Below are positions 7,099 through 11,801 of a stretch of 64,000 bases of DNA, piece by piece; position 1 is the stretch's first letter, and each line of letters begins with the position of its first letter. Source of the stretch: Cyclobacteriaceae bacterium (lineage in GTDB: Bacteria; Bacteroidota; Bacteroidia; Cytophagales; Cyclobacteriaceae); the NCBI GenBank assembly GCA_025455015.1, contig JALONI010000027.1:1-64000 (forward strand), in the 5' to 3' direction. Under the pieces are notes generated by a model. It saw only the letters and a program-made list of their open reading frames with translations, searched no databases and had not been told where the DNA came from. The translations under genes and the position numbers were made by a program.

Positions 7099-10044
7099 TT
7101 ACGCCATCAGCATTTCAATGTCTTCGCGCGTGAGCGTTTTGATCACGTTTTCTTCGTTCTGGATCAAGCTCTCCGACAATTTGAGTTTATGCTTCTGCAG
7201 GGCCAGTATCTTTTCCTCTACCGTGTTGCGGGTGATGAACTTGTAGGTAAACACGCGCTTCTTTTGGCCGATGCGGTGAGCGCGATCCGTTGCTTGGGCT
7301 TCTACGGCCGGGTTCCACCACGGGTCCATGATAAACACATAGTCGGCCTCGGTCAGGTTCAAGCCCAGCCCACCGGCTTTGATGGAAATCAGGAACACGC
7401 GTATTTTTTCGCTCTTGCTAAACTTTTCTACTTGCTCCCTGCGGTCGGTGCTGGATCCGTCCAAATAGGCAAACGGTATTTTTTTGCCGTTGAGCACTTC
7501 CTTGATCAAATCCAGGTGTTTCACAAACTGACTAAAGATCAACAGCTTGTGGCCTTCAAAAAGGGCGTTGTCGATCATGTGCGACACATCGTCCAGTTTG
7601 CCGGACGTACCCGTGTATGCCGCATCGATCATGCGGGGGTGGTTGGACAGTTGCCGCAACTTGGTCAATCCTTCCAAAATGGTAAAGCGCGATTGGCCAA
7701 TGCCCTCTTTGTCGATGAGGTTGAGGATCTTTTCGCGGTAGTATGCCTTGGCCTCTTCGTATTTCTGTTCCTGATCAGCCGTCATGTTGGTATAGTAGAT
7801 GTTCTCTACTTTCTCGGGCAGCTCGGTAGCGACTTGCGACTTGAGCCTGCGCAAGACAAACGGCTTGATGACGGCATTGAGTTTTTTCGTCTTGGCCTCG
7901 TCTGCTTTCTTCTCAATGGGCACTTGGTATTCGTTTTTGAAAAACGTGTGCGTGCCCAACAGCCCGGGGTTGATAAACGTCATCTGCGACCACAAGTCCA
8001 GCGTGGTGTTTTCCAGCGGGGTGCCCGTGAGGGTGAGGCGGTACCGCGACTTCAATTGCATGACGGCTTTGGCAATGTTGGATGTGGGGTTTTTGATCAC
8101 CTGCGATTCATCCAGGATGATGTAGTTGAAATAAAACTGCGACAGCGTTTCCACGTCCAACCGGGTGATGCCATAGGAAGTAAGTACCACATCGTATTTG
8201 GCAAAACGCGCTACGTCTTTGACGCGTTGGGTGCCGGTGTACACCAGAATTTTCAATTGAGGCGCAAATTTGCCAGCCTCCATCTCCCAGTTGTAAATCA
8301 ATGAGGTGGGCATGACCAGCAGCGAAGTGCCGGCATTGCCTTTTTCTTTTTCCGATTGCAGCAGGGCCAGCGTTTGCTCTGTTTTGCCCTAGCCCATGTC
8401 ATCCGCCAGGCAGCCGCCGTAATGAAATTCATTCAAGAAGCGCAGCCAGTTATAGCCCGCCTTTTGGTATGGCCGCAACGACCCCTGAAAGCCGGCCGGC
8501 ACGGGGTAGTCTTTGATGCCGGTAAAGTGCCGTAAATTTTTCAGCCGCTCGCTCATGTGCACTTTGGCCAGGTTGCCTTCTTGCAACTCCATGAGCAGGT
8601 TGAGGTGGTATTTCTTCAACACGGGCTTTTCGGCATCGCCCTGGGTCTCGCTCATGGCAAACAGATCGCCATATTTGATCAGCCACGCTTCGGGTATGAT
8701 GGCGATTTCACCATTGGGCAATTTGAATTCCACCTTCTTTTTGAGGATCAGCTTGCGCAGTTCCTTGAAGCTGATTTCGTATTCGCCAAACCGGATTTTG
8801 GCATGGATGTCAAACCAGTCGATATTCTCTTTGACTTCCAACTCAATCACTGCCTTGCCCACAAAGTATTTTTTGTCGCGGTTTTCGGGCTGGCTTACTT
8901 CAAAGCCCAGGTTCAGCAGGTTGACGCGGTTTTCGTTCAGCCACGAGAAGGCATGGGCTTTGTCTACCGCCACGCGAAAGCCTTTCAGCGGTAAGCCCAG
9001 CTTGATCAAGGTCTGCGCGTATTTTTTCTCGGCTTCCAATTGGCGCTTCACCCGGTGAAAGACATACGCGCTCTCCTTTTTTTCCATAGACACGCTCACC
9101 GTGCCAAAGGCTTCTCCGCGAAAGCGGTGTTTGCCATACTTAAATGAGAGGTCGAAAAAAATCTTGCCCGTTTCGTCATCGGCCCGTTCTTTCGGGGCTT
9201 CGTCAAAAAGCGAAGGTGCTTCGCTGGCACTGGCGGTGGTTTGGAGTTCGGATAAGGTAAGCAACGGGTGTGGGTCGTAGTCGGTTTTGACGATTTCGAA
9301 CCCCTCCACGTCAATATCCTCAAACGAGGCGATGAGCGGAGCAATGAAGCGGGTGTAGTAGGTTTCTTCCAGGTTTTTGGGAATGACCACATTTTTCTTC
9401 GCCAGGAAGGGCAGCAGCTTTTTGCCGTCCACATGCCGTTCAAAGCCATAGAGTTTGCCGTTCACCACCATCCACGCGGGGTTTTTGCACACGAGGTAGG
9501 CCGCGGGGTTGGGGATGTCCATCTTTTTGCCCTCGTAGGTGAGCGTGGGGTAGTACACGGTGCTATCCGCGGTTTTTCGGAAGTGGAAAAGTATTTGCGC
9601 CCGTTTGTCAAGCACGTCCAGTCTTTTCCAGGTGGGCTCACCGTCATTGCCCATCTCAAAAAGCATTTTGCCCTTGAGTTTGTCAAGCACCTCGCTGCGT
9701 TTGGTTTCCAGGTAGCGCTCTATTTCCTCTTGCACCCACTCATTACCTTTTTGCTTGTCGTACGTCTTGGCAAAAAACTCATTGGGCTTCATGGCCTTGG
9801 TGCTGAACTTCTTCAAGATCACGTCCTGGCTCATTTTATCCATCAGCTCAATGAGTTCAAAGTCGCGCGCATCCAACCCGCGGCTAAACTCACGCGCGTT
9901 TTTGGATGAGATGTTTTGGTGTTGGTATGTGAGCTTGCCTTTTTCGTCCAGGTGCACGATGAACGACTCGAACAGATAGCCGAGGTACTCGTGCTGGTAG
10001 AGCGAGTAAATGATTTGAAACGGTTGGGAAGCGGAAACCTTCAT
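7099..10044 (-). pseudogene. SNF2-family helicase interrupted by an in-frame TAG in Walker A
   Basis: Two open segments, 10044-8392 and 8388-7099, are in the same frame and together encode about 981 residues of a bacterial SNF2/RapA-type ATPase. The N-terminal 500 residues are a Bacteroidota-type accessory region. The helicase part has LRPYQKAGYNWL (Q-motif region), DDMG then TAG then GKTEQTLALL (Walker A), DESQ (Walker B), TGTPLEN, DGSSTDR, GGLGLNLTEADYV and DRAHRIGQ (motif VI). The TAG at 8389-8391 replaces the leucine of the GLGKT motif; a single T-to-A change from TTG would explain it. Everything after the stop is intact and conserved. TAG ends other genes here, so recoding is unlikely. 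A restart at 8313 would lack Walker A. Either a very recent pseudogene or a base error. Confidence 0.85.
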
Positions 10045-10206: not shown

Positions 10207-11424
10207 CTAGTGGGCATCCGGGCGATAGCTGCGCGCGGCCACCGAGGCGGGGTAAAACGAAATGGTCAGCGTAATGGCAATCTGCGTGGTTACGGTCAGG
10301 GCGAAGTCCGATGCCTTCATGGCCACGGGGTAGTTGGTTACGATGGCATTCTCCATGCCCATGCCCACCAGGCCTACGTGTTGCTGCAACAGGCAAACCA
10401 CCGTGCCAAGCACCAGCCCGGCCCCGGCCCCGATAAAGGCAATGAGGGCACCTTGATGGACAAAAACAGCGCGGATGGTAGTGTCGCGCGCGCCCATTGC
10501 GAAGAGGATGGCCACATCGCGCTTTTTGTCGATCACCAACATCATCAGCGAAAAAAAGATATTGATGGACGAGATGAGCAGCAGCAGCGCAAAACTGACA
10601 AACGCAAAGAGTTTTTCAATTTTGAGCAGGCGGTATAGGTCTTTGTGTTGCTCTTCGTTGGTGAGCACCACAAAGCCGGGGCCCAGCCGCTTTTCCAGCC
10701 GTTGCTTGACGGCCGCGGTTTGGCCATCGGTCATCACCTCCAGCGAAGTGCGCCTGTTGGCGTAGTTGAGCAGCCGCTCAGCAAATGCCAGCGGCACGAG
10801 GATGTAGTTTTCATCGATGTTTTTCTCGATGGAGAACACGCCACTCACACGCAGGTTTTGTTGAAAATACAGATCGGCCGGGTTGGCCGAGCGGCTTTTT
10901 TGATTTTTGATGTAGAACACCTGAAGCGGGTTGAAGTCATCGGCCAACGGCAAGGAAAGCGCATACTGCACGCCTTGTCCGATCACGGCATATTCCACGC
11001 TGTCTTTGGTAAGCCACAAATCCCCTTGCTGAATGGCCTCGTCCAGGCGGTGCTGGTCGATAAAATTCTGGCTCACGCCTTTGAGGGTAGCCACCATGTC
11101 GGCTCCGCGGTAGCGCACATAGGCATAGTCTTCGATAACCTCGGTTACAATTTTCACCCCCGGTACGTGGCTGAGCTGCTGCCGTAGCGAATCTGTGACC
11201 GGGAACGATTTTCCCTTGGCCGGAGCGATTTTGAGCTCGGGGTCGAAGCGGCTGTTGAGCGAGCGCAGCAGCCCCTCCAGGCCGTTGAATACGGAAAGCA
11301 CGATGATGAGCGCTGCGGTAGCCAATGCCAGCGCTACCATGGACAGGATGGAGATGATGTTGATAAAATTCTTTTTCCTGCGCGAAAGAAAATAGCGCCT
11401 CGCAACAAAGAGCGGGAAGTTCAC
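10207..11424 (-). CDS. LolE/LolC-type ABC transporter permease (FtsX family)
   Basis: The 405-residue protein has the MacB/FtsX layout: an N-terminal helix (about residues 25-50), a large periplasmic domain of about 230 residues, and three C-terminal helices. The N-terminal FVARRYFLSRRKKNFINIIS is typical of Bacteroidota LolE-like permeases, which extract lipoproteins from the inner membrane for outer-membrane delivery. The cognate ATPase gene is not in the window. Translation starts with GTG, 5 bases after the rbfA stop, so the two genes form an operon. Assignment to Lol rather than to another MacB-type exporter is by similarity only. Confidence 0.8.
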   Translation of the reverse strand: MNFPLFVARRYFLSRRKKNFINIISILSMVALALATAALIIVLSVFNGLEGLLRSLNSRFDPELKIAPAKGKSFPVTDSLRQQLSHVPGVKIVTEVIEDYAYVRYRGADMVATLKGVSQNFIDQHRLDEAIQQGDLWLTKDSVEYAVIGQGVQYALSLPLADDFNPLQVFYIKNQKSRSANPADLYFQQNLRVSGVFSIEKNIDENYILVPLAFAERLLNYANRRTSLEVMTDGQTAAVKQRLEKRLGPGFVVLTNEEQHKDLYRLLKIEKLFAFVSFALLLLISSINIFFSLMMLVIDKKRDVAILFAMGARDTTIRAVFVHQGALIAFIGAGAGLVLGTVVCLLQQHVGLVGMGMENAIVTNYPVAMKASDFALTVTTQIAITLTISFYPASVAARSYRPDAH

Positions 11425-11429
11425 CGGGG

Positions 11430-11801
11430 TTAGCTCACTTTGGTTTCGGGCGGAATCTGCAGATTGCGGATGATCTCCTCCACGCGTTGGGCCGATTCTT
11501 CCAGTTCATCAAGGATAAAGATCAGCTCGGGAATGATGCGCACTTGCCTGCGGATGATGTCACCCAATTCCTTTCGGATTTCGCTCTTACGCGCATTGAG
11601 CTTTGCCAGCACGCCCGGTTTGTCTTGGGAAAGGGTGAGCCCCAGGTAGATCTTGGCCACGGATAAATCGGGGCTCATGCGCACCTCGGCAATACTGATG
11701 AACGAATTGCCCACGATGCCTTTTTTGTCGCGCTGAAAAATACCGCTCAGTTCTTTTTGAATCATGCGGGCTACCTTCTGCTGCCGTACCGTGCTGCTCA
11801 T
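11430..11801 (-). CDS. rbfA: Ribosome-binding factor A
   Basis: The 123-residue protein has the RbfA KH-like fold signatures: QKVARMIQKELSGIF at the N-terminus, ISIAEVRMSPDLSVAKIYL in the centre, and VRIIPELIFILDELEESAQRV as two peptides near the end. RbfA binds the 30S subunit late in assembly and assists 16S rRNA 5'-end maturation. The gene is the first of a pair with the LolE-like permease. A -7 element ends only 4 bases before its ATG, so the mRNA may be leaderless. It is divergent from the PIN-domain toxin-antitoxin pair. Confidence 0.9.
   Translation of the reverse strand: MSSTVRQQKVARMIQKELSGIFQRDKKGIVGNSFISIAEVRMSPDLSVAKIYLGLTLSQDKPGVLAKLNARKSEIRKELGDIIRRQVRIIPELIFILDELEESAQRVEEIIRNLQIPPETKVS

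Follow-up and report, generated by a model that had tools for sequence, protein, structure and literature searches.

Is the stop codon in the ATP-binding loop of an otherwise healthy SNF2-type ATPase gene a property of the organism, or of its draft genome? The question is raised by a gene on the minus strand of contig JALONI010000027.1 (Cyclobacteriaceae bacterium, assembly GCA_025455015.1; C23 in our numbering), of whose 69,020 bases we analysed bases 1-64000, a stretch of 64,000 nucleotides called the window below. The source is a 3.42-Mb draft genome of 154 contigs, 96% complete. The original prediction left three readings open, namely a very recent lesion, an error and read-through; of these the error reading is now favoured, and evidence has accumulated against read-through. 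The stop is most likely absent from the organism, and would reflect a local consensus error in the draft genome.

Results

A single TAG in an SNF2-type ATPase gene

The gene (7099-10044, minus strand) comprises 981 codons and a terminal TAA. The minus-strand codon 8391-8389 is TAG and is the sole internal stop in the otherwise open frame from 10044 to 7099, with 551 codons from the ATG ahead of it and 429 beyond, in line with the approximately 550 and 430 residues originally given. Its context is DDMG*GKTEQTL; the Walker A motif as read is DDMG*GKTEQTLALLQSEKE, in which TAG occupies the place of the Leu in DDMG-L-GKT. Judged from the frame and profile searches, the N-terminal fragment (8392-10044, 551 codons) ends just ahead of the Walker A lysine, and the C-terminal fragment (7099-8388, 429 codons) carries the SNF2 and Helicase_C domains with an incomplete Walker A. 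Beyond the stop, the first internal start to have a listed open reading frame is 25 codons away, the ATG at 8313.

With TAG read through, the frame matched the whole PF00176 model (positions 1-290) at 233.2 bits (cut-off 24.9). The C-terminal part alone matched PF00176 at 198.8 bits and PF00271 (Helicase_C) at 81.4 bits (cut-off 23.5). Both the SNF2-related domain and Helicase_C of an SNF2-family ATPase are therefore present, whereas the Walker A motif is incomplete as assembled, reading DDMG-stop-GKT against DDMGLGKT in 134 of 134 motif matches from relatives. The N-terminal fragment matched no Pfam family at E 0.001, and the N-terminal half gave a weak end-match to the sll1366 helicase type (NF058636, 57.5 bits, cut-off 550). 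Among NCBIfam models, the C-terminal half scored 357.3 bits with NF058637 (cut-off 1200) and 339.8 bits with NF053675 (cut-off 1100). The best kin are thus the SCO1167 (NF058637), pilus-regulating Snf2 (NF053675) and sll1366 (NF058636) types, and with the halves scored apart and far under the cut-offs these scores denote kinship, not membership. RapA identity (equivalog NF003426) was not found for the C-terminal part alone (18 bits, cut-off 576). The anti-phage SNF2 profiles of PADLOC (ZorD, DpdE, DrmD) match the C-terminal motor part, best DpdE with 418.7 bits.

Counting the source genome itself, 61 of 62 genus genomes have a match to the C-terminal part and 147 of 148 family genomes have one to the N-terminal part; the genus genome lacking a C-terminal match (G011) is only 77% complete. 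Over the C-terminal protein, the nearest of the genomes compared are about 85% identical. The only other PF00176 match in the source genome is weak (C110, 32.8 bits), and it was rejected as a second copy since its gene resembles the Mfd motor too (38% identity), indicating another kind of helicase. The neighbours examined encode a LolC/E-type permease, RbfA and an Rce1-like protease. The permease and RbfA reading frames lie upstream of the helicase at 10207-11801, and matches to both adjoin the helicase in five of six sampled genus relatives. In one draft genus relative of 810 contigs, the SNF2 orthologue (G039:C813:9392-10674) is seemingly broken, consisting of two overlapping pieces with one TGA.

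Three same-type changes at invariant sites

A protein alignment was built from the window and 79 of 80 loci from a single collection, L076 being left out since its contig lacks the region; five of the 79 aligned frames are shorter than 900 codons. TAG stands at the Leu position in none of the 79 aligned relatives, all of which have Leu there, so the comparison with orthologues bears out the original statement that TAG replaces the leucine of GLGKT. A motif search over 142 loci returned 137 matches, with five loci unmatched. Three of the matches are the window's own, and the remaining 134, which include some genomes represented twice, all encode Leu (CTT 58, TTG 44, TTA 14, CTG 13, CTA 3, CTC 2).

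The stop does not stand alone. The Glu of GKTEQ (codon 556, GAG, 8377-8379) is itself abnormal, the relatives having Val (77 of 79) or Ile (2 of 79), and codon 542 (TAC, 8419-8421) is Tyr in the window alone, with Leu in 56 and Phe in 23 relatives. When columns identical in the 79 relatives and gap-free in at least 90% of rows were taken as invariant, 669 base columns qualified and the window differed at exactly three of them, 8420, 8390 and 8378. Each is a T-to-A change at a second codon position, or A to T on the plus strand. With a threshold of 97% there were four departures in 853 columns, the fourth being an A-to-G change at 7418. Three randomly drawn invariant columns fall within 43 bases with a probability of 0.001 (200,000 draws). 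The uniform T-to-A type makes chance less likely still, though T is the commonest invariant base of the gene (270 of 669); in the 43-base span, only 5 of 25 invariant columns are T. The original picture of one T-to-A change from TTG is thus incomplete, for there are three such changes within 43 bases. Given this cluster at invariant sites, a lone nonsense mutation loses weight in favour of a local error or one clustered event.

A further candidate is the targeted rewriting of the patch from a template, by a diversity-generating element or by conversion from a paralogue. A single type of change on one strand (A to T on the plus strand) is possible from adenine-specific mutagenesis. However, a search of the source genome with 401 bases around the site returned, apart from the site, 35 short matches, none of them exceeding 30 bases, so that the assembly contains no template repeat, as a diversity-generating retroelement target would have, and no further similar DNA above that length. 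Of the three pairs of inverted repeats in 8250-8550 none lies over the patch, and in our judgement the motif of a housekeeping-type ATPase is an implausible target. Template-driven rewriting is already weakly refuted by these findings, and we give it hardly any credence.

The gene outside the patch and control genes

Compared with 31 relatives at genus level, the helicase shows departures at 17 of 1,051 bases and 8 of 429 residues that are invariant in them, when the patch sites are counted; outside the patch, the figure is 14 of 1,048 bases. In a leave-one-out count over 31 rows, the window has 17 base departures against 22, 19 and 26 in three stop-free relatives; the gene's freedom from decay elsewhere, noted at the outset, is borne out. 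Four control genes of the source genome were treated likewise. Departures were found at 6 of 667 bases and 3 of 305 residues in SHMT (29 relatives), 13 of 1,330 and 6 of 550 in Mfd (29 relatives), 5 of 1,257 and 3 of 573 in UvrA (29 relatives), and 11 of 1,572 and 5 of 756 in rpoB (30 relatives; 958 codons, cut by a contig end).

Residue departures were graded as mild or radical by BLOSUM62. None of the 17 departures among the 2,184 invariant residues in the controls is more than mild; G to N in SHMT goes furthest. In the helicase, the stop and V to E are radical and L to Y is milder; the rest are K to T, E to D, R to K, I to L and N to S. Radical departures number two in the window, two in L085, one each in L078, L084, L091 and L093 and none in the other rows, and those of the relatives are spread out.

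Clustering alone is not unusual, as similar clusters occur in apparent natural divergence. Three departures fall within 36 bases of the source genome's rpoB (A to G, A to G, A to C) and within 37 columns in L142, where they are of mixed type (T to A, G to C, A to G), and five genus relatives have three or four departures within 43 columns each. In 46 of the 80 rows of the full alignment, no base differs where all other rows agree. What is unusual in the window is that all three changes are of one type, that they lie at sites varying in no other row, and that they place a stop and a charge in conserved hydrophobic positions.

The SNF2 gene of a chromosome record (L083, CP058703.1) has eight ambiguous residues at otherwise invariant places; the script counted these eight letters, which are not real departures. 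The orthologue of Bacteroidetes bacterium OLB12 (L081) has 16 departures in 59 columns near its N-terminus (alignment columns 225-283), a run resembling a compensated local frame slip within that record.

A broader comparison of the window's genes with stretches of six genus relatives proved too shallow and was replaced by the deep single-gene alignments. It had given 48 radical departures in 3,185 columns invariant in three to six relatives, eight of them in the helicase, spread over most of the genes compared with no clear pattern. Its six-frame list of stops was discarded as well, consisting mostly of off-frame matches.

TAG as a stop codon in the source genome

Read-through of TAG, by a suppressor tRNA, recoding or a programmed mechanism, would allow the full-length ATPase to be made, and the frame past the stop is indeed fully open and conserved. 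Against this, TAG is in regular use as a stop. In 449 kb of the source genome, 218 frames of at least 300 codons, the helicase frame included, end in TGA (81), TAA (81) or TAG (56), and the two genes formerly cited as ending in TAG do so and have Pfam matches, one to a response regulator receiver domain and the other to an outer-membrane beta-barrel; TAG is accordingly not a sense codon here, as had been argued. Release factor RF1 (prfA) is present in two pieces, at 358.4 bits (model positions 6-270) and 93 bits (282-356), each of which by itself falls short of the cut-off (423.25). They lie at the starts of two contigs (G000:C73:3-800, L344; G000:C107:1-225, L346), and a third match to the prfA profile at 234.7 bits is presumably RF2. 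No CTA anticodon was found among 34 tRNA genes, a set that is incomplete and includes no Trp or Ile tRNA; the missing CTA anticodon speaks against read-through as supportive, not final, evidence. The use of TAG as a stop, the prfA pieces and the absence of CTA among the 34 tRNAs give no sign of recoding or suppression. Moreover, TAG stands at the site in none of the 79 relatives, and read-through leaves the two neighbouring missense changes unexplained. We regard it as extremely improbable.

Candidate internal stops elsewhere in the source genome

We surveyed 449,020 bases of the source genome, made up of the window and a further 385,020 bases and amounting to about 13% of the genome; 679 stops there are flanked on both sides by 60 open codons. 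Ordered by coding score, the TAG at 8391 comes third, after 66248, just past the window, and C53:42451. These two and the next 13 below the TAG have a start codon within 14 codons, like neighbouring genes in one frame, and C53:42451 lies directly ahead of a full-length DapF gene. Three lower candidates (C5:22146, C53:10154 and C109:10045) have no near start and no Pfam match on either side. Neither the four control genes nor the few best candidates of this census contained a second patch of the helicase kind. The parts sampled thus give no evidence of an error-prone assembly.

Discussion

The stop is one of three same-type changes within 43 bases in a gene that is otherwise healthy, and for this reason we consider a local error the most likely explanation. 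The three bases of the patch 8378-8420 would then be wrong in the consensus, at a place where the assembly may rest on few or faulty reads; candidate sources are errors in the reads where depth is low, or a variant that was collapsed wrongly. The true gene would in that case encode an intact, conserved SNF2-family ATPase. We infer this status for the patch from the departures themselves, the undecayed gene, its single copy and the use of TAG as a stop.

The 154 contigs of the draft include one (C36) whose end cuts rpoB and two that begin with pieces of prfA. The case resembles known in-frame stops due to consensus errors in that an isolated stop interrupts an undecayed, conserved single-copy gene of a draft assembly and neighbouring bases are deviant as well; it differs in that the helicase has substitutions only, all of one type, and that the assembly looks clean where it was sampled. 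An earlier case of an artefactual stop is offered by a single-contig genus relative (G013), whose rpoB (L347, G013:C1:3626200-3630300) contains an in-frame TGA and reads VFLP*VNTPNGTKL where relatives read VFFAMSKHTNGTKL, with 8 N in 4,101 bases. This stretch differs from the relatives in the manner of a compensated frame slip and is presumably an assembly artefact. Since rpoB is an essential gene, its stop serves as an artefact precedent in genomes of this kind, although it shows an indel pattern and not the substitution pattern of the helicase. A TAG counted in the Mfd gene of G011 seems to sit at the C-terminal end of that gene and offers no such precedent. Among particular error sources, the GG-ending triplets reported as Illumina error motifs (PMC4787001) do not fit the patch, where the preceding triplets are TGC, CCC and CCG on the plus strand and CAG, GCT and ATT on the other.

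The main rival is that the loss of the helicase is real and very recent, through one clustered event producing the three T-to-A changes or through strain variation; we think this unlikely, while giving it far more weight than either read-through or template-driven rewriting. The assembly has one copy of the stretch, and that copy carries the three bases. Substitutions of several bases in a cluster are a recognised kind of mutation, though the literature found on them is about human, cancer and yeast genomes (PMC6633265). Loss would also have a possible parallel in the one unmatched genome among the 62 of the genus, though that genome is incomplete. However, no sign of relaxed selection is seen outside the patch, the gene is retained almost throughout the genus and the family, and the assembly offers neither a homologous copy nor an inverted repeat over the patch that could template the changes. 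Recent nonsense pseudogenes likewise have a single stop and little other decay; here, in contrast, three same-type changes sit at invariant sites within 43 bases and scattered decay is lacking. A bacterial mutation shower, in which a real single event introduced the T-to-A triple on one strand and abolished a near-universal SNF2 ATPase before further decay, in a population related to Cyclobacteriaceae, strikes us as quite improbable.

Under the favoured reading of a consensus error, the locus is a caution: in a draft genome, an in-frame stop that falls within a conserved motif mimics recoding or pseudogenisation, and neighbouring bases that are invariant across many relatives can expose a suspicious local patch. 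Were the lesion real, codon 551 would be the last one translated and the motor would be lost, any C-terminal piece restarted at the first internal start lacking the Walker A loop. The source lineage would then be able to lose a helicase that almost all of the family retains.
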